Below, in pieces: positions 19,903 through 37,371 of a stretch of DNA of 64,000 bases. Made by a program: the position numbers and the translations under genes. Source of the stretch: Candidatus Nitrosotenuis cloacae (lineage in GTDB: Archaea > Thermoproteota > Nitrososphaeria > Nitrososphaerales > Nitrosopumilaceae). The stretch is from assembly GCF_000955905.1 (NCBI RefSeq), contig NZ_CP011097.1:445957-509956 (forward strand), given 5' to 3'. Numbering within the stretch: the stretch's first letter is position 1; every line of letters begins with the position of its first letter. The notes beneath the pieces were generated by a model. It did not search any database. It worked only from the letters and a program-made list of their open reading frames with translations, and had not been told where the DNA came from.

Positions 19903-21330
19903 ATGTCAGACAACCAAAACCAAAACAAATCCGGCTGGAAGATTCTTGCCATTCTGAGCTGTCTTGGCTTGATAGTAATGTTTGATGAAACTATGATTTT
20001 GCCTGCGATTCCTGATTTTGTTCGTGACTTTGATATTTCTTACAGTACTTCGTCTTGGTTGCTCTCAGCCTATATCATTGCGGCAGCTGTCATGACACCG
20101 ATTGCAGGCAGACTATCTGATATCTATGGCAAAAAGAAAATGCTGCTCATAGTAATGGCAATCTATACTGTGGGTGTTGTTGCGGGGCGATTTGCCACCA
20201 ACATAGAATTCATGCTGTTTGCAAGAGCATTGCAGGGTGTCGGAATGGCAATGTTCCCAATTTCCTTTGGAATCATACGCGAGTCGCTACCTGAGAAAAA
20301 ATTTGCAACTGCTCAGACCATATTCAGCTCTACATTCCCAGCGGGGGCAATTATCGGCCTCGTTGGTGGGGCAGTAATAATACAAAACTTTGGCTGGCAG
20401 GCTACATTCTTGGTAATTTTACCAATTGCAATAGCGCTTTGGATTGTAATATTGAAGTTCATGCATATCCCGAGCCCGACCTTACCTGAAAATGATCACA
20501 CACCAATGGACAAGTCAATTGACATCAAGGGCACGATACTTTTGACAATCACAATAGTGTCATTTCTAAGCGGCATTACCTTTCTAGAAAGCAAAGAAAC
20601 TGGCTACTATGTTGCGGGATTGTTTATCATATCTGCAATATCGCTTGCAGCATTTATCATAATAGAAAAGAGAGCATCTCAGCCGCTTTTGGATTTGAGT
20701 CTGATGAAAAACAGGAATTTTCTTCCCCCGACTATGATTCTGATGTTGGTGTTTCTTTCTATTTTTACAGTATACCTTACAGTTCCCGTGATGGTGAGAA
20801 GCCCAGTACCTTTGGGATTTGGCGGTGATGCTTTGGCAGTGGCAAACGTACAGTTGCCATTTATGGTTGTATTTTTGGTAACTACGGTTATCTCTGGCTT
20901 TATCCTAAACAAGGTCAAAAATACAAAGCTGACTCTGCTTGGAACTATAATATCCACAATAGGATTTTTCTTGCTAGTAATGTTCCACTCTACTGAAACT
21001 ATGGTTGCAATTGGCCTCACGGTACTTGCAGTTGGATTGTCGCTTTCAATTGCGGGCGGATTCAATGTCATACTTACTTCTGTACCAATGCAGGTGACTG
21101 GAATTGCTCTTGGAATGACAATGCTCTTGGATCTGGTTGGAATGTCGGTTGGTCCTGTTTTCGCTGGAATATTTCAAGATGCATACCGAGGATCTGTATC
21201 TGGTGTGGCAGGAGAATTTCCGACAGAAACGGCATATGTTTTGATATTCATTGCGGCAGCTTTGATTTCATTGACGTCAGTCATTCTTTCAATAATGGTC
21301 AGCAGAAGAAAAATAATTCAGCAACAATAG
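19903..21330 (+). CDS. MFS drug/proton antiporter, DHA2 (EmrB/QacA-like) family
   Basis: A 475-residue membrane transporter with about 14 hydrophobic helices. Motif A between helices 2 and 3 reads GRLSDIYGKKK, helix 1 has MFDETMILPAIPDF (the DHA2 form with D and P residues), and motif C-like GAIIGLVGGA is in helix 5. It probably expels small hydrophobic or cationic compounds using the proton gradient; substrate unknown. It is a single gene, and no regulator sits next to it. Confidence 0.88.
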   Translation: MSDNQNQNKSGWKILAILSCLGLIVMFDETMILPAIPDFVRDFDISYSTSSWLLSAYIIAAAVMTPIAGRLSDIYGKKKMLLIVMAIYTVGVVAGRFATNIEFMLFARALQGVGMAMFPISFGIIRESLPEKKFATAQTIFSSTFPAGAIIGLVGGAVIIQNFGWQATFLVILPIAIALWIVILKFMHIPSPTLPENDHTPMDKSIDIKGTILLTITIVSFLSGITFLESKETGYYVAGLFIISAISLAAFIIIEKRASQPLLDLSLMKNRNFLPPTMILMLVFLSIFTVYLTVPVMVRSPVPLGFGGDALAVANVQLPFMVVFLVTTVISGFILNKVKNTKLTLLGTIISTIGFFLLVMFHSTETMVAIGLTVLAVGLSLSIAGGFNVILTSVPMQVTGIALGMTMLLDLVGMSVGPVFAGIFQDAYRGSVSGVAGEFPTETAYVLIFIAAALISLTSVILSIMVSRRKIIQQQ

Positions 21331-29580: not shown

Positions 29581-30132
29581 TTACTGGGCTTCGACTTTTT
29601 CTGGATGGAATGTTCCCTCGATTTCCTTGGTCTTTATCTTTGCATAGATGTGAACCGTTGGATGCCCTTCTCCTTCTGGGGTGTATTCTCCGGTGTATGT
29701 TCCTGCCTTTTTGGGATCTTCCTTTATGGTCAGGGTCGTCTTTTTGTCATTTAGTGTGACATCGACTTCTAAGACCTTGGCTAGTCCCTTTACACCTGAT
29801 TTGTGTGAATGAGTTGTTTTTGTTGTGGTCTTTTTGTCTGGTTTGTGTTCGTGATCAGAGTGAGTTGCCTTTTTCTTCTCCGTGGTCTTTTTCTCAGTTT
29901 TTTTCTTGGAGTCTTTATGATCGTGCGAGTCCTGTGAGGCTTTTTTGTCACTAGGTGCAGCTTTTGCAATGACTATTTCTATTGCGTTTTTCTTGCCTGC
30001 CACTGGAGGCTCTTTTACCCATCCTACTTCAATATCATAGTCTCCGATGACTTGGGATTTGTGGGCAAATGCATTGCCGACAAGACCAGTAGCTACAAAA
30101 AAGACTACCATTGCGGCAATTTTGGTATTCAT
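29581..30132 (-). CDS. Exported His-rich protein, possibly copper-binding (YtkA/FixH-like)
   Basis: A 183-residue protein with signal peptide MNTKIAAMVVFFVATGLVG. The mature start IGDYDIEVGWVKEPPVAGK resembles small extracytoplasmic beta-sandwich proteins related to YtkA/FixH in copper and oxidase handling. Residues 58-115 are a Lys/Thr insert with many His (SHDHKDSK, THSDHEHKPD, TTHSHKSG) that could bind metal. The beta-domain resumes afterwards. The promoter carries the shared 17-base element (see 30167), so it belongs to the local regulon. Confidence 0.7.
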   Translation of the reverse strand: MNTKIAAMVVFFVATGLVGNAFAHKSQVIGDYDIEVGWVKEPPVAGKKNAIEIVIAKAAPSDKKASQDSHDHKDSKKKTEKKTTEKKKATHSDHEHKPDKKTTTKTTHSHKSGVKGLAKVLEVDVTLNDKKTTLTIKEDPKKAGTYTGEYTPEGEGHPTVHIYAKIKTKEIEGTFHPEKVEAQ

Positions 30133-30153
30133 TATTTCATTTACTCATTTTGT

Positions 30154-30183
30154 ATAGATAATGATGTTGGTAGAATTATCAAA
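30154..30183 (-). promoter_or_regulatory. Promoter of 29581-30132 with shared 17-base element (site A)
   Basis: Read toward the gene, 30183 to 30167 is TTTGATAATTCTACCAA. Five bases later comes TTATCTAT (30161-30154), a TATA-like box centred about 25 bases before the ATG at 30132. The same element at the same five-base distance precedes three other promoters in this locus. Confidence 0.7.
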
Positions 30184-30206
30184 GAGAAAAATATTCTATT
30201 ATGTAA

Positions 30207-30704
30207 TCAGATGGAGCTGAATATGTCTGAGATGTTGTCTGCAGTTCTCTCAAATAGTGATGTCTTGTGTCTTGCAATGATTTCTCTGACGTAGTTAGAA
30301 TCTGTTATCTCAAAGACAAGCTCGCTTTCTTGGAGTTTTCTATTAATGATGTTTTGTTCTGTTAACTCCTTGAGATATACTGATACGGTTCCCTGTGACT
30401 TGCCTGATTTGTGTGTTATTTCTCTAAATGAAAGACTATGATCAAGCAATGATGTGATGATTTTTTTCATTGTTGGGTTTCTGAGACTCTTGATGAGGTC
30501 TGCTTCTTGTTGCTCTATCCCACATGGATATATTCTGGCAACTCGAGGAGTTCTCTGGATTTGTATTTTACCAGATTCCTCGATTTTTGACAAGTGGTGA
30601 CTGAGAACTCCGTTTTTGAATCCAGTCTCTCGCATTATCTCAGAGTAACTGATTCCGGGATTTCTGTTTACGATTTCTAGTATTTGGTCTGCTCTAGTTT
30701 CCAT
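30207..30704 (-). CDS. Transcription regulator with two winged-helix domains
   Basis: A 165-residue DNA-binding protein with no sensor domain apparent. The first winged helix (about 1-60) reads EIMRETGFKNGVLSHHLSKI, the second (about 70-140) REITHKSGKSQGTVSVYLKEL, both ArsR/MarR-like. One Cys (residue 62) lies in the linker. It is encoded directly behind, and overlapping by one base, the membrane protein at 30704, in a unit whose promoter bears the shared element. It is therefore the best candidate to bind that element and to control itself. Confidence 0.8.
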   Translation of the reverse strand: METRADQILEIVNRNPGISYSEIMRETGFKNGVLSHHLSKIEESGKIQIQRTPRVARIYPCGIEQQEADLIKSLRNPTMKKIITSLLDHSLSFREITHKSGKSQGTVSVYLKELTEQNIINRKLQESELVFEITDSNYVREIIARHKTSLFERTADNISDIFSSI

Positions 30705-31093
30705 TAGTCTCTCCTGAATACGCCTATTGAGAATATGCCCAACATTCCTATAATAAGCATATGACTAATTTGCTCCAAGGTAATACTTCCTAAATAAAAT
30801 GTGTAAGGCCAAGTCACATCCACTATTTTGATTATCTCTGATGCTACAAACAATGAAAACGCAATTGATGTGATTGCCAGCTTTTTGGTTTTAATTTTGG
30901 CATATGCGTATGCTGCAGAAACGGTAAGAAATGTAGCAAGTGCGATTCCACCAACATGCAAAAAGATGTGGGCGATGTGATATCCATGGAAAAGATTTGG
31001 TATTATGATTGGCAAAAACAGTATTCCAATTACCCCAAGTATGCTGGCAACGAACATGTTGCTTTTTTGCTCAATGAATGCGGTAAGTGACAA
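30704..31093 (-). CDS. Four-helix membrane protein of unknown function
   Basis: A 129-residue integral membrane protein with four hydrophobic helices (FVASILGVIGILFLPIIIP, IFLHVGGIALATFLTVSAAY, LAITSIAFSLFVASEIIKI, ISHMLIIGMLGIFSIGV). His residues sit at helix ends (LFHGYHIAHIFLH), which could bind metal or haem. It starts at TTG 31093, with TTAAATTT about 27 bases upstream. It is the first gene of a two-gene unit with the winged-helix regulator, so it may sense or relay the signal. No family recognised. Confidence 0.65.
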   Translation of the reverse strand: MSLTAFIEQKSNMFVASILGVIGILFLPIIIPNLFHGYHIAHIFLHVGGIALATFLTVSAAYAYAKIKTKKLAITSIAFSLFVASEIIKIVDVTWPYTFYLGSITLEQISHMLIIGMLGIFSIGVFRRD

Positions 31094-31115
31094 CTATACC
31101 TAATGATGATTTTTG

Positions 31116-31145
31116 AAATTTAAGGCGACTGGTAGAACTATCAAA
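31116..31145 (-). promoter_or_regulatory. Promoter of the 31093-30207 unit with shared 17-base element (site B)
   Basis: 31145 to 31129 read on the minus strand is TTTGATAGTTCTACCAG, followed after five bases by TTAAATTT (31123-31116), centred about 27 bases before the TTG at 31093. It matches site A at 15 of 17 positions. Confidence 0.7.
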
Positions 31146-31172
31146 AATAAAGAAAAAGAGTGAACTTTCCCT

Positions 31173-32354
31173 CTATGGGAATGTGTATTGACCATTACTT
31201 GTTGGTCCTGGATTAGTATAGTTTCTTGGCGCCTGATCAGATATTGGGTTTCCTGGGACTGGGTTTAGCGTGTTGATTGCATTTGCAATGTCTTCTAGAA
31301 TATTCCAAATATCCCAAGTGTTGTCTCTGATCTGCCCGATTGCTGTCCTGATGTCTGTTGGATATGTCTGCTCGTTTGTTCCGGCACTGTTGTCAGGCCA
31401 AGCTATTCCCTGCGAATAACCGTTTGTAGTTGGACTAGATGTAAAATTACCTAATCCAAATCCTCCACTAATTGTGGCAGTTCTGTTTGCTACACTTCCT
31501 GTGTAAGTCTGTTTAACGTTGTTTGTGTAGTTTGTTCCCTGAGATAAAGACAAGGTTTTGATGTTCTTGCCATCAGTCCAGAGGTTGATGTTTGTTAAAC
31601 CAATGCTGGTGTCGTTATAGTAGTTGATACTGCCATACACGTGGTATAGAGTTAGGCCTTGTTGGGTGTAATGTTGTCTAGTGCTTTGTCTATACGTACC
31701 ATCGAGGTTAAATCCAATTGGGACTTCATGTGCAGCCAATGGTCTTCCAAACATATCTGTTCTACTATCTGTATATCCAAAAGATCCTCCAGCATTTGGC
31801 ACACAATTATTTGCATTTCCAATCAACACATTGCTGCTTACCGTGCCTGAACTGTTACACCAAAATCCCGCCGTGTTCGCACCTGGATTTGTACCGGAAT
31901 TGTCATACTTTACTCCACCATAGAGTGCTTTGCCACCAGATGTGTAGCTGTAAAGTGTTGATGCTGGGTAAAAATATGCGTCAACTTTGAGAATTTTACC
32001 GGTTGGTGAAAAATCACTCTGTTGATAAGCCGTCTTTGTCTGGTCCTTATGTGCATTATTTACTCCAAATGATGTTTGCATGTGGGTCATTCTGATTTCT
32101 AAATCATGAATTCCGCCTGTGTAAGCAGGCTCGTCAGTTTCGCCTATCCCAATTCTGACTGTGTGGTTGCCATTGGTTGGGGCAGTACCGGTGCCTGAAC
32201 TAATGGATCCGCCAGAACCCTTGAAAACTCCGCTTCCTGGAACAATGTCGAAGCTCATATGAGCATATGCAGCATCAAAATTAATCATAAACATGACTGA
32301 AGAAGCCACAATAGCAACCATCAATAGATGTTTGATGTTTTTTTGCGTTATCAT
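31173..32354 (-). CDS. Large exported Gly/Thr/Asn-rich protein, unknown
   Basis: Using the ATG at 32354 the protein has 393 residues and a signal peptide (NIKHLLMVAIVASSVMFMIN) cut near AYA-H. An upstream TTG at 32390 would overlap the promoter. The mature chain is rich in Gly, Thr, Asn and Tyr, with a beta-domain first (HTVRIGIGETDEPAYTGGIH, HDLEIRM), which resembles extracellular domains seen with copper proteins. One Cys pair is near residues 155-175. The C-terminus is Pro/Asn-rich and lacks an anchor. Its promoter has the shared element (site C). Confidence 0.65.
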   Translation of the reverse strand: MITQKNIKHLLMVAIVASSVMFMINFDAAYAHMSFDIVPGSGVFKGSGGSISSGTGTAPTNGNHTVRIGIGETDEPAYTGGIHDLEIRMTHMQTSFGVNNAHKDQTKTAYQQSDFSPTGKILKVDAYFYPASTLYSYTSGGKALYGGVKYDNSGTNPGANTAGFWCNSSGTVSSNVLIGNANNCVPNAGGSFGYTDSRTDMFGRPLAAHEVPIGFNLDGTYRQSTRQHYTQQGLTLYHVYGSINYYNDTSIGLTNINLWTDGKNIKTLSLSQGTNYTNNVKQTYTGSVANRTATISGGFGLGNFTSSPTTNGYSQGIAWPDNSAGTNEQTYPTDIRTAIGQIRDNTWDIWNILEDIANAINTLNPVPGNPISDQAPRNYTNPGPTSNGQYTFP

Positions 32355-32379
32355 ATTTTGATTTTTAAAAAATTTGTAG

Positions 32380-32409
32380 ATATTAAACAAAATTGGTAGA
32401 ACTAGAAAA
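32380..32409 (-). promoter_or_regulatory. Promoter of 31173-32354 with shared element (site C)
   Basis: 32409 to 32393 on the minus strand is TTTTCTAGTTCTACCAA, then five bases, then TTTAATAT (32387-32380), about 29 bases before the ATG at 32354. This is half of a divergent promoter pair with site D. Confidence 0.65.
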
Positions 32410-32413
32410 TTTG

Positions 32414-32442
32414 TTTGGAGATTCTACTAGAAATCATATAAA
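32414..32442 (+). promoter_or_regulatory. Promoter of 32467-33147 with shared element (site D)
   Basis: TTTGGAGATTCTACTAG (32414-32430) is followed after five bases by ATATAAA (32436-32442), about 28 bases before the ATG at 32467. It is the weakest match to the other three sites but has the same orientation and spacing toward its gene. Confidence 0.65.
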
Positions 32443-32466
32443 CAAAATCTCAAGTCAAAAACTAAA

Positions 32467-33147
32467 ATGAAGACCTTTGACACCAAACTGATAATTGCGG
32501 TAGTGGCTACTGCTGTAGCATTAGGTAGTTTTACTTACCATTATGCGATTGCTAGTCATGGTTTTGAAACAGGAGCAATAGGTGGAGGACTACCTACTGT
32601 TGCAAATGTGATGCTAGCTGGACAAGTAATGAGACCTGGTGATTATCTCGCAATTGCAGATTTTAGCCCAAACTATGTAAGCGGACATTTACTAGTCAGA
32701 ATACCATGTGATCCTACAACAAAGAAACCTTTGGTTACTCCGGTTGCTGGACACATTGATGAGCTTCTTGATAGAACATGGGTGGCTCCAGCACAGCTAA
32801 ACCTTGTTCCACATGCCAGTTCTGGTGGAATTCGAGGAGTCACAGGAACATGTGTATATCATTCACACATTCCCGCGCTAGATACTACTGGAGTAGGTAA
32901 TCCAGGTGCACCAAGAGTAACGGACATTGGCTTGTTAAATCAGGGACAGACTAATGTGGTGTTTAGAACCTCAAACTCTGCATCATTTACTTTACTCAGA
33001 GTTGTAGGTGACATAAATCCACCAAATCAATACGGCCCAACCGGTTCAATGCCTGCGCCGTATAATGCAGTGACCTTTCCTGAAGTAAATCTCTCAAACC
33101 CTCAGGCAAGTATCAGTATCGACACTGCTTCACACAGCGGCCACTAA
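32467..33147 (+). CDS. Exported protein with CxxHxH motif, unknown (possibly copper-binding)
   Basis: A 226-residue protein with signal peptide MKTFDTKLIIAVVATAVALG. The mature part is beta-rich with two Cys. The second is in GTCVYHSHIP; the YHSH form recalls metal-binding turns of multicopper oxidases and cupredoxins, though no full cupredoxin pattern is present. Repeated His residues (GHLLVRIPCD, GHIDE, VPHASS, HSGH end) support metal binding. The stop is two bases before the next gene, so the two share a message and the site-D promoter. Confidence 0.65.
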   Translation: MKTFDTKLIIAVVATAVALGSFTYHYAIASHGFETGAIGGGLPTVANVMLAGQVMRPGDYLAIADFSPNYVSGHLLVRIPCDPTTKKPLVTPVAGHIDELLDRTWVAPAQLNLVPHASSGGIRGVTGTCVYHSHIPALDTTGVGNPGAPRVTDIGLLNQGQTNVVFRTSNSASFTLLRVVGDINPPNQYGPTGSMPAPYNAVTFPEVNLSNPQASISIDTASHSGH

Positions 33148-33149
33148 AA

Positions 33150-35480
33150 ATGGCTCTTTTTTCATTTTTTTTGATTAGGTTACTTGAACAACAATTGCTA
33201 TGTGGTAATCAAGGTGCGAGATCCAACTCACCAAAAATTGATACTAGATTTCTAGAGTTGGGAGTTTTACTGTCTCTTGTCTGTTTATCTCCAGCACTAA
33301 ATGAGGCACATGGACTAACCACTGCCAAAAACTGTTCTGGCTGTGTCAATAACACAAATACACAAATTTTGACAATTTTTAATTTTCAAACAGAAGCTAA
33401 TCCGTTTCTTGGTGGCAATACTACATTTATCATAACTCCAAATCCGTATGCTCACGCAACCAACGCAACTGATTATCTGGATCTTACCACCTGGTTTAAT
33501 TTCGTAGTTTCAGACAATGATCAACTAGACTCCGATCCAATGCCGGGAATAATAGAACTAGTTGGGGTAAACAATGGTACGTATAGTGTGATGCAGATCA
33601 AGGGCACTGCTGGATTTGGAATGGCTGCGTATCCTGCAGCATCGGATGAAATTATGGGAACGACTGGATTCAGCTATATAACGCAGACTTTTGTCAACTT
33701 TACCACAACTACATCTGCTACTATTGAACCCCCATTAATCAGCGATACACTATATGACAAACTCAAAAACACTGGAGGCGCCAAAATAAACGGTGTTGCA
33801 ATATCTAGCAAAAATGACCTACCTCCAGCCAAGATTGTCGTAGCCTCTCAAAAACTAACGGCAACTCCGCCTGACCATGTTGTCTTTACTCAGACATTTT
33901 CAACTTCTGCTACCCCATCCACATTGATTAGCACATTGGGAATCCCTACATATTCGCCGCCAACTGACACTTCGTCTGGCACCAGCACTTCATTCATTCC
34001 ACCAGTGTATGTTGCTCCAGTTTCAAGTAATGGGGGAAATTTCATCCTTACACCTGTAATGGACACCATAGTACCAGGTTCCAATATTGTGATAAGAGCA
34101 GATAAGGTATCTCAAGGCGGTGATCATCCGATGCTAGAGTCAATTGAACTACCAATGAATACACAAGGTAGCAATGTTGGAATTAGTGTAAAAGTTGATG
34201 ATGCCATTCCTTCTGGTTCTCCTTCAGTACCTTCTGGATTTGCTAAAATATATTTGGATTTTCAAACAAGTGGTGATATTGATTTTTCTAATTCTGCCGT
34301 ATATGCAGAAAAACCAACCATTAGGTTCACATTAGAAAAAGTAGGATCTGATTGTCCAACAGGTGTGACTTTGTATCTTCAACAGGGAAGCAGTTGGAGT
34401 ACAGTTGGCTCTAATCTATCCGCAACTTCAACTGGTACACATACGTGTACATATTCAAAAACTGTTGATCACTTTTCATCATATTTGGTTGGAACCGGAA
34501 ATACAGATGCAGGACACGGTCACAGTGATTCCTCACATTCATCATCACATGATTCATCTCATACTGCATCTCATACAGGACACACTCATTCTACAACAGA
34601 CCATGAAATGGACCCAATGCCAGGTGATCACCCATACGAGCATGCAATCATGGAAATAACAAAGACACTCATGATATATGAAATCCAGTATTCACTGGAA
34701 ACCGGCTCTGCCCAAATCATAATTGGAACAACAGGCTCAGTAGGTGATATCGAGGTCCAGGCTCACACCAGAGCCGGCGGACTGGTCACTGCTAAACCAG
34801 TAAAAAATAACCCGTTTGAGCTGTTCAACAAGCAAAGCATTGGAGATCTGAACAAGTATGTCTTTGAGATTCCGCTAAATCCAAGCGAGACTTACTTTAG
34901 AATATCTGTGGATGACTCGCAATATACTCTGGCGCAAACTGTTGCAATAGATGGTATCAGAGGCAAAGTAATTCCATGGTATGTAGATGTATCTGGAGTA
35001 TCTGATCATTCGGACCATTCTACATCAGAGTCAACAACCAATTCAGCAGAATATGCAGTCAAGTTCGATGGTGGAATCAAGACCGTTTCGTATAATGATG
35101 TGCAGTTTCCGATCAAGTATGAAATGGCAGGCTCTATCTCTGGAATTACAGTAGATGAATCGTCCAAATCTGTGACATTTTTGCTTGGCGAGGTAGTGGG
35201 TGGATTGGCCACAATTCAGGTGCCAAGAGGTCTGGTTGATGCCACAGGGAATAATTTTGTAGTGTTTGTTACCGCATCGCCACAAGAGCAGATCGAGTAC
35301 GAGTTGGTATCATCCACATCCGATCATTATACATTGCAAATGAATCTGCCAGAAGGCGCATCATCTCTTACCATAGTTGGCACTGCAGTTGTTCCAGAGT
35401 TTGGATTGCTTGCGCCAATAATTCTGAGTCTTGCAATCATACCTATAGTTCTGGCAAGAAAAAGACTAAATCAATTATAA
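33150..35480 (+). CDS. Large PEFG-anchored surface protein with His-rich linker
   Basis: A 776-residue exported protein. A hydrophobic segment (LGVLLSLVCLSPALNEAHG, about 37-55) serves as signal. Several beta-domains follow. One near 300-450 resembles the PGF-pre-PGF type and ends in DHFSSYLVG. A His/Ser-rich linker (about residues 452-490) has many His. Further beta-domains lead to VVPEFGLLAPIILSLA and a basic tail at the C-terminus, the PEFG-CTERM signal that archaeosortase-type systems use to anchor proteins. The start at 33150 lies two bases after the previous stop. Confidence 0.75.
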   Translation: MALFSFFLIRLLEQQLLCGNQGARSNSPKIDTRFLELGVLLSLVCLSPALNEAHGLTTAKNCSGCVNNTNTQILTIFNFQTEANPFLGGNTTFIITPNPYAHATNATDYLDLTTWFNFVVSDNDQLDSDPMPGIIELVGVNNGTYSVMQIKGTAGFGMAAYPAASDEIMGTTGFSYITQTFVNFTTTTSATIEPPLISDTLYDKLKNTGGAKINGVAISSKNDLPPAKIVVASQKLTATPPDHVVFTQTFSTSATPSTLISTLGIPTYSPPTDTSSGTSTSFIPPVYVAPVSSNGGNFILTPVMDTIVPGSNIVIRADKVSQGGDHPMLESIELPMNTQGSNVGISVKVDDAIPSGSPSVPSGFAKIYLDFQTSGDIDFSNSAVYAEKPTIRFTLEKVGSDCPTGVTLYLQQGSSWSTVGSNLSATSTGTHTCTYSKTVDHFSSYLVGTGNTDAGHGHSDSSHSSSHDSSHTASHTGHTHSTTDHEMDPMPGDHPYEHAIMEITKTLMIYEIQYSLETGSAQIIIGTTGSVGDIEVQAHTRAGGLVTAKPVKNNPFELFNKQSIGDLNKYVFEIPLNPSETYFRISVDDSQYTLAQTVAIDGIRGKVIPWYVDVSGVSDHSDHSTSESTTNSAEYAVKFDGGIKTVSYNDVQFPIKYEMAGSISGITVDESSKSVTFLLGEVVGGLATIQVPRGLVDATGNNFVVFVTASPQEQIEYELVSSTSDHYTLQMNLPEGASSLTIVGTAVVPEFGLLAPIILSLAIIPIVLARKRLNQL

Positions 35481-35485
35481 AAAAA

Positions 35486-35544
35486 CGGTGAGAAATCACA
35501 CTTGTCGAATCAGGTCCCTTTGGTATTCATTTGGTTTCTCACCG
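35486..35544 (+). terminator. Long hairpin after the PEFG protein gene (terminator or RNA element)
   Basis: CGGTGAGAAATC (35486-35497) pairs with GGTTTCTCACCG (35533-35544), twelve pairs with one G-U, around a 35-base loop. Inside, GAAT (35507-35510) can pair with ATTC (35525-35528). It starts six bases after the stop of the surface protein gene. There is no following T-run, so it may stabilise the message end or control the next gene rather than terminate. Confidence 0.55.
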
Positions 35545-35592
35545 AGGTATTACACATCAAACCATACCAAAATAATTAAGAAAATTGGTACA

Positions 35593-35630
35593 TTTACCAA
35601 ATCTACTATTGTGGATTCTTCGTTTATTAG
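35593..35630 (+). promoter_or_regulatory. Promoter of 35653-37371 with weak copy of the shared element
   Basis: TTTATTAG (35623-35630) is centred about 27 bases before the ATG at 35653. Upstream, TTTACCAAATCTACTAT (35593-35609) matches 11 or 12 of the 17 positions of the shared element, but 13 rather than 5 bases separate it from the box. TTGGTA/TACCAA (35585-35600) also forms an inverted repeat here. Confidence 0.35.
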
Positions 35631-35652
35631 CCGGATCTGGCTCAACTCAGGC

Positions 35653-37371
35653 ATGAAACCACGAATAATTCTTCTCCTTACTGTGATTGCTCTGATTACA
35701 TTCTATACGCAGCCATCATTTGGACACGGCGTAGGCGGAGAAACCTTACCGCCAGTTCTAATTGATGGCAAAAATGCTACATTATCACTCAACATCAATC
35801 CTCCAATCTTTGATAGTACAACCGGAGAATATGAGATCTTGATTCGACTCTATGATGCCAATACACAAGAAGTAATCCCACATGTGACATATTTGGTAGA
35901 GTTATCCAAAGACGGCAAGCAATTACTGCGAGAAAGATTCCACGATGATTCGAGCAATCTATCCATCAAGGTAATTCCAAAAAATGGCCCAATCAAGATT
36001 CAGGGGAATAATTTTGGCGAGCTTGGATGGATGAAAAACACGGATCTATTCCCACTAAAAATTGAGGGGCCAATTTTTCTCTCAGGCGGCCTGTACAAGT
36101 TTCACATCGAGATTTTGACAGTTAATGCAGATTCCAATGTTCTAAAAAATCCAGTAAAATATGACGCATCAATTAGCCTTGCGCAAAAAACTATACACCA
36201 AGTGTCTTATGAGAAAAAAAACTATGACATTGGCGTGATGACATATTATGATGTGATACAGGACTTTGAATTTGATGAACCATCAAGAACCATAACATTT
36301 TCAATGCCATACGAATGGAGCCAAAAAAACATCGAGCAGACAAATGTAATACATCAAGAACTCCACATCCCAAAAACATTTCCAGAGCTATTAGTGACAA
36401 GATATGATGGACTGGTCAATGGCATTCCAATACTGGAACATGCAATCACAATAGATGATTACACCACAGACAGCAGAATCGTCCATGTGGTTTTGAACCA
36501 AAAAGAATTATTCTCAATGGTTGACTCTATCCAGGACAAATCAAAGATTGACTTTACCATAACACCAAGCAAGATGGAAAAATTCCCGCTAAACGCATTC
36601 ACTCACAATGCCATATTCCAAGTGGGCCTTTCCTGGGAGCCTACTCCAATTATGCCTGATCAGAACACCAGATTCTTTGTCGATATCACCAGGTATTTTG
36701 CGCCTAAAATCCAAGAGGACGCCAAGTTTGACCTTGTCATAAAACAGCGCGGATCAGAATTATACCGCAAATCCGTTACTGGCTTGATTGGTGCTCAGGA
36801 AAAGACCAACTATTATGATTATACTTTCTCAGAAAAAAACCTCGGACCAGTAATAATATCAATAGAAGGCATAAACGGAGAAAAACTATCTTCTGTTGAT
36901 TATGTGATTGTGGTGTCTCCAAAGGAAACCAAAAAGACATTTCCCATTAGAATCCCAAGTACAACGCAAGATCGCACCCAAGGAAATTATTTTGTTGATC
37001 TGACTTGGATTCCAGAAAACCTACAGCCCGGTGAGACCGAATTCATCTTTACCATATACGATAGGAATCTGCAACCCGTACCAAAAGCAGAATATGATTT
37101 CACAATATTGCAAAACGGGCAGGCACTCTACAAAAATTCCGGCATGGCCCAAGCAGGCGGAAGCTTTGAGGATGTAATATTTTTTGAGAGCAACAAGGGA
37201 CCGATCACACTACAAATAGAAAACATCAACCAGAGTGATGAGTCGATAGAGATTCCAATCATGGTGACACCTGAATTTCCATTAGGGCTATCTCTGGTGC
37301 TTGGTACACTATTTGCTATTGTGATCATACTATATCACAAAACCGGGCAAATTCTGCGTCATCCTTTTTAG
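35653..37371 (+). CDS. Exported multi-domain surface protein with PEF-type C-terminal anchor
   Basis: From the ATG at 35653 the protein has 572 residues and a clean signal peptide (KPRIILLLTVIALITFYTQP). The frame is open upstream to 35488, but that part would run through the hairpin and promoter. The mature chain has repeated beta-sandwich domains, including matching segments near the middle and end (LSWEPTPIMPDQNTRF and LTWIPENLQPGETEF). The C-terminus VTPEFPLGLSLVLGTLFAI is a PEF-CTERM-like anchor with a basic tail. It follows the PEFG protein and may share a surface complex with it. Confidence 0.7.
   Translation: MKPRIILLLTVIALITFYTQPSFGHGVGGETLPPVLIDGKNATLSLNINPPIFDSTTGEYEILIRLYDANTQEVIPHVTYLVELSKDGKQLLRERFHDDSSNLSIKVIPKNGPIKIQGNNFGELGWMKNTDLFPLKIEGPIFLSGGLYKFHIEILTVNADSNVLKNPVKYDASISLAQKTIHQVSYEKKNYDIGVMTYYDVIQDFEFDEPSRTITFSMPYEWSQKNIEQTNVIHQELHIPKTFPELLVTRYDGLVNGIPILEHAITIDDYTTDSRIVHVVLNQKELFSMVDSIQDKSKIDFTITPSKMEKFPLNAFTHNAIFQVGLSWEPTPIMPDQNTRFFVDITRYFAPKIQEDAKFDLVIKQRGSELYRKSVTGLIGAQEKTNYYDYTFSEKNLGPVIISIEGINGEKLSSVDYVIVVSPKETKKTFPIRIPSTTQDRTQGNYFVDLTWIPENLQPGETEFIFTIYDRNLQPVPKAEYDFTILQNGQALYKNSGMAQAGGSFEDVIFFESNKGPITLQIENINQSDESIEIPIMVTPEFPLGLSLVLGTLFAIVIILYHKTGQILRHPF

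Follow-up and report, generated by a model that had tools for sequence, protein, structure and literature searches.

The window analysed here, a 64,000-nucleotide stretch of the Candidatus Nitrosotenuis cloacae genome, holds a cluster of genes for exported and membrane proteins, together with the gene of a small candidate regulator (Table 1). A sequence-only reading of this DNA had described four 17-base elements in the cluster, each separated by five bases from a TATA-like box. Upon re-reading the sequence, we found all four of them, letter for letter, at the same coordinates and on the same strands. The gap and the TATA-like stretch following the element are CATCA and TTATCTATA for the His-rich gene, TCGCC and TTAAATTT for the membrane protein gene, TTTTG and TTTAATAT for the Gly/Thr-rich gene, and AAATC and ATATAAAC for the CxxHxH gene. 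In all four units the element lies about 5 nt upstream of the A/T-rich box and ends 34–38 nt before the start codon, the most likely start of the membrane protein being TTG 31093.

Table 1. Coordinates of genes and candidate operators in the window and, where a locus handle (L) is given, at related loci.
Feature	Position	Strand	Remarks
Exported His/Lys-rich protein, AHK/AHKT family	29581..30132	-	Filamin-like Ig segment (weak match)
Candidate operator TTTGATAATTCTACCAA	30167..30183	-	Before the His-rich exported protein gene; ATG 30132
Candidate regulator, 165 aa	30207..30704	-	Two tandem winged-helix domains; HTH_5 / HTH_24 in both halves
Small membrane protein	30704..31093	-	Co-transcribed with the regulator; adjacent to it in nearly all relatives examined
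Candidate operator TTTGATAGTTCTACCAG	31129..31145	-	Before the membrane protein + regulator operon
Exported Gly/Thr-rich protein	31173..32354	-	ORF opens at 32390; ATG 32354 is the likely start
Candidate operator TTTTCTAGTTCTACCAA	32393..32409	-	Before the Gly/Thr-rich exported protein gene; ATG 32354
Candidate operator TTTGGAGATTCTACTAG	32414..32430	+	Before the CxxHxH exported protein gene; ATG 32467
Exported CxxHxH protein	32467..33147	+	Cys129 and His132 invariant among homologs
PEFG-CTERM surface protein	33150..35480	+	Target, probably in an operon with the CxxHxH gene
Genes of the paralogous locus	L091 5067–6620 and 10599–11482		Dps-like protein, CDF cation-efflux protein, third two-winged-helix regulator and small membrane protein
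Element of a PEFG gene's own	L097 12819–12834
Element of a PEFG gene's own	L096, promoter		PEFG gene at 3–1592, - strand

Sequence and geometry of the element

Allowing up to three mismatches, the consensus occurs 13 times in the window, versus 0.87 times in shuffled sequences. Moreover, when the 70 window ORFs of at least 80 aa were scanned for TTCTACYA 20–75 nt before a candidate start, exactly four had it, and these are the four units described above. A looser core, TTNNNNNTTYTACYA, showed no enrichment genome-wide (79 matches, against 69 for the reversed control), so that only the core taken together with its geometry is informative. The first third of the genome has 30 loose-core matches, and apart from these four none lies convincingly at the right spacing before a start; of the remaining matches, one falls within an antisense ORF that precedes an argC-like gene and one within a coding sequence.

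The 17-base element forms an imperfect inverted repeat: its matrix correlates with its own reverse complement at 0.54 in register and at no more than 0.21 at other offsets. It is thus probably bound by a dimer, or by both winged-helix domains of a protein together.

Three further matches were considered separately. At 35585–35600, the perfect half-sites TTGGTA-CATT-TACCAA stand 52 nt upstream of position 35653, the probable actual start of an exported GHG protein (ORF 35488–37371), whose orthologs have weaker versions of the half-sites at a different spacing. The palindrome TTGGTAATTTTACCAA at 20410–20425, which lies within the ORF of an MFS-like transporter (19903–21330), is probably due to chance and was not counted as a site because it is in coding sequence. 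A match upstream of a fumarase-like gene (G000 531440, and L251 in G014) was also taken as chance, its spacing not being conserved between the two promoters.

Conservation of the element in related genomes

The expectation of the sequence-only reading that the element would be conserved at orthologous genes in relatives was very strongly borne out. Within the genus, 47 of 61 distinct promoters of homologous genes matched the element at 13 or more of 16 positions, compared to 1 of 247 control promoters, which belong to other genes at the same loci (Fisher p~1e-41, a value that overstates independence, since the 61 promoters are related, some of them closely, and since each promoter of either group was scored at the best of several offsets). 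Even so, the effect is seen among genomes at ~50% protein identity, a divergence at which intergenic DNA evolving neutrally is expected to be saturated. The element stays before the His-rich, Gly/Thr-rich, CxxHxH and membrane protein genes even where these have moved or turned, and it is kept 33–35 nt ahead of the start in homologs of the His-rich gene. We conclude that the element is a real regulatory site.

The PEFG homologs of G005 and G010, unlike the gene in the window, have an element of their own, 35–37 nt before the start. Near the end of a contig in G002 (G002:C9:44470-44634; L243, L306), the membrane protein gene is interrupted by stops and preceded by an intact element, and the regulator was not found in that assembly.

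Across the order, where the membrane protein and regulator genes are adjacent, 80 of the 85 distinct operon promoters have the core N[AT]AC[CT]A with a TATA-like box 4–6 nt downstream, versus a mean of 1.4 and a maximum of 5 in shuffled promoters, the count being descriptive since the pattern was picked after inspecting the promoters. This retention supports autoregulation of the regulator's own unit, as had been suggested earlier. The form of the element at this operon is TTGATAGTTCTACCAGT in Nitrosotenuis, TTCGAGAGTTGTACCAGT in Nitrosotalea, TTCGANNNTTGAACCAGT in Nitrosopumilus and TTCTGGCTTTGTACCAAT in Nitrososphaera. In another family (L108, L168 and L185), the operon promoter reads GTACCAATAATTAATTATATA, with the element and the TATA region nearly fused.

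Further copies in the same genome

A private regulon of one locus, as originally proposed, is refuted, because two other loci of the same genome (G000), one paralogous and one with CopC-CopD, also have the element. The paralogous locus, at 1.451–1.455 Mb, encodes paralogs of the regulator (30% identity), the membrane protein (35%), the His-rich protein (45%) and the CxxHxH protein (24%), and has a third two-domain regulator, a CDF cation-efflux protein and a Dps-like protein as extra genes. Variants of the element precede the homologous genes there, at the same gene types, and the paralogous regulators could share these sites or split them. A forward site at L091 9490–9505, followed by a TATA-like stretch and the ATG of a very short ORF, could mark a gene for a tiny peptide or the remnant of a gene. 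The corresponding cluster of G008 contains a CsoR-type metal repressor (L110 4879–5136).

At position 1477100, a site with one mismatch lies 39 nt before the gene of an exported AHKT protein, which is divergent from a CopC-CopD fusion gene (profile matches with E=1.8e-12 for CopC and E=3.3e-21 for CopD). This site is kept in G001, G002, G013 and G015. The element is oriented toward the AHKT gene, and CopC-CopD itself may be controlled from it as well. Moreover, the form of the element changes in concert at the two kinds of promoter. The Nitrosotenuis-type TTGATAGTTCTACCAG is present at both the regulator and the AHKT/CopC-CopD promoters (at the latter in G013), the Nitrosopumilus-type TTCGANNNWTGWACCA at both in G094 and G129, and the Nitrososphaera-type, with TTCNGGNTTT ahead of GTACCA, at the regulator as well as the CopC-CopD promoters of G216. 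Such parallel drift is best explained by one protein reading both promoters.

Candidate regulator, membrane partner and target proteins

The fold of the regulator is predicted with confidence (pLDDT 86.8), and HTH_5 matches the protein at 1.7e-15. Its nearest solved folds, as found by Foldseek, are BigR, HlyU and CzrA, i.e., ArsR/SmtB-like proteins. The halves of the regulator have the winged-helix fold of these metalloregulators (BigR, HlyU, CzrA, SmtB), but the latter are single domains of ~100 aa with a Cys/His metal site (alpha3N, alpha5 and similar), whereas the window regulator has 165 aa in two tandem winged helices, is paired with a membrane protein and has its candidate operator upstream of BRE/TATA. 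Its score against NCBIfam HTH_metalloreg (42.7 bits) is under the cut-off of 55. In the sequence alignment no metal site was evident (a single Cys, no CxC and no family-conserved Cys), so that copper would have to act elsewhere. Residues N31, G32, V33 and S35 of the recognition helix of the first domain are invariant in 17 aligned homologs, which a conserved site would lead one to expect.

The N-terminal half of the regulator matches the HVO_0163-type HTH (PF24266) at 32 bits, above the cut-off of 31, and the G216 homolog reaches 44.8. For the membrane partner, DUF7471 (PF24283) gave weak matches in 4 of 18 homologs (best 1.5e-5) and none for the window protein. We found no description of the function of either family in the open-access literature. 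CsmR of Haloferax volcanii is likewise an archaeal winged-helix regulator and inferred activator with a semi-palindromic site upstream of BRE/TATA, but it is a single small domain (13 kDa) concerned with motility and cell shape, and its site, TATCA-N4-TGATA, is different (PMC13286277).

In the membrane protein, His33, Glu77 and His102 are invariant and His37 is near-invariant (numbering of the 120-aa form), and the protein probably takes part in sensing. With regard to the targets, no solved structural relative was obtained for the His-rich family, which gave weak Filamin-like matches only. The predicted model of the CxxHxH protein is of modest confidence (65.9) and had no significant PDB match, so the fold search does not support a cupredoxin.

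Link to copper limitation

The genome G216 is taken here, from its size and gene content, to be that of N. viennensis. Profiles built without G216 matched its regulator homolog at 1.5e-44 and its membrane protein homolog at 2e-25; a strong match of profile A3 to its CxxHxH homolog was discarded, as that sequence was in the alignment.

A motif, TTCSGSMTTTGWACYANT, with 12 instances, was published in 2020 at −35 to −70 of N. viennensis genes induced by copper limitation (PMC7785015). It is present in two copies before copC/D_b and also before NVIE_014290, which is presumed to be co-transcribed with the ArsR-family gene NVIE_014280 in an operon upregulated under copper limitation, and its regulator was left open (PMC7785015). 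NVIE_014290 was later named a putative cation channel and is induced in biofilms (PMC12448741). NVIE_014280 is the homolog of the window regulator, and the homologous operon of G216 carries TTCSGSMTTTGWACYANT at one mismatch. The published arrangement is seen in G216, where a winged-helix gene is accompanied by a membrane protein gene, which has the motif, and by two CopC-CopD genes, the second of them with the motif in duplicate.

The published motif has the same length as the window element, the same layout (TT....M.TT.WACYA) and the same place before the start, and it accompanies the same kinds of genes, namely CopC/D, exported proteins and a membrane protein + 'ArsR' operon. The genera differ in the left half of the motif and in the base preceding WACYA, but elements of the TT....M.TT.WACYA type were found 35–70 nt before starts, and Nitrosotalea- and Nitrosopumilus-type intermediates link the two forms. 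The sequence-only reading knew of no description of such a system; its Nitrososphaera form had in fact already been published for copper-limitation genes, without a regulator (PMC7785015). The same reading had suggested a metal or envelope signal because of the His-rich cargo. A metal signal finds support, the basis being not this cargo alone but also the published motif and the CopC-CopD neighbour. No protein assigned to the motif was found in the open-access literature, a search in which a subscription paper could be missed. What is new here is the assignment of a regulator, the order-wide conservation and the membership of the regulon.

Proposed regulation and alternatives

We consider it likely that the element serves as operator in a copper-responsive regulon, in which the two-winged-helix protein, with its membrane partner, promotes its targets when copper is scarce. 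The regulator would be made from one operon with the small membrane protein, its probable sensing partner, and its binding site would be the imperfect inverted repeat TTGRTA-N4-TACCAR immediately upstream of BRE/TATA. When copper is scarce, it would raise its own operon together with exported and membrane proteins, which presumably bind copper at the surface of the cell. The regulon would comprise the AHK-family His-rich, CxxHxH, Gly/Thr-rich and PEFG surface proteins, plus the CopC-CopD/AHKT pair elsewhere in the genome. By analogy with N. viennensis, copper limitation appears the likeliest signal in the organism of the window. That the two-domain winged-helix protein is the probable binder, as the sequence-only reading had it, is supported by the site at its own promoter throughout the order, by the inverted repeat and by the duplicated locus with its own regulator.

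The same protein on the same operator could, however, be a repressor that blocks TFB/TBP at the BRE when copper is sufficient and lets go when it is short. The proximal half-site does abut the BRE, the ArsR/SmtB-like proteins that are the nearest solved folds are mostly repressors, and the N. viennensis operon rises with its targets (PMC7785015), as would be seen with derepression and with positive feedback alike. Nevertheless, the fixed orientation and spacing of the element upstream of the TATA box favour activation, as do the two separate sites of the divergent genes (32393–32430), since an activator needs these and a repressor does not; moreover, the site lies upstream of the TATA box and start, not over them. 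We therefore infer that the regulator activates rather than represses, and regard derepression as unlikely. A quite improbable reading is that another factor, be it a different winged-helix protein or a TFB isoform on an extended BRE, reads the element, the regulator gene being merely a target. In line with this, the element adjoins the BRE, and thaumarchaea have several TFBs. Moreover, G011 keeps the element at its AHKT/CopC-CopD promoter, while neither the regulator nor the membrane protein was found in this assembly (98% complete, 20 contigs), which makes a second binder possible. The CopC-CopD region of G009 is nearly identical to that of G011 and G009 has the regulator, so G011 may also reflect a recent loss or an assembly gap. 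Against another factor, both the order-wide site before the regulator operon and the symmetry of the repeat fit the local regulator, the duplicated locus carries its own regulator along with its own sites, and in G014, where the regulator is missing, the AHK-family genes have no well-placed sites either.

There is next to no chance that the similarity merely reflects non-functional shared ancestry of duplicated promoters, or coincidence. Several of the target genes are indeed paralogs, and the loose core is not enriched over the genome, but the target families have no visible homology to one another, and this reading is already refuted by the conservation tests, both by the fixed spacing kept across saturated divergence relative to control promoters and by the excess over shuffles at the order's operon loci.

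Returning to a copper-responsive activator, the pair may, tentatively, represent an ancestral copper-limitation unit of ammonia-oxidizing archaea, in which the membrane protein would sense envelope copper with its conserved His and Glu residues and hold or release the cytoplasmic two-winged-helix activator; we see this as a conceivable but rather doubtful extension. If true, it would be a metal-sensing pathway without a histidine kinase and without a metal site in the regulator.

The analysis provides a named candidate regulator, an operator with fixed promoter geometry, a target list and an order-wide footprint, and the hypothesis is open to testing with protein and DNA of cultured N. viennensis or Nitrosopumilus, without genetics. 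It would place many functionally uncharacterized exported proteins in the context of copper, and would answer how ammonia-oxidizing archaea switch on their copper-scavenging genes.
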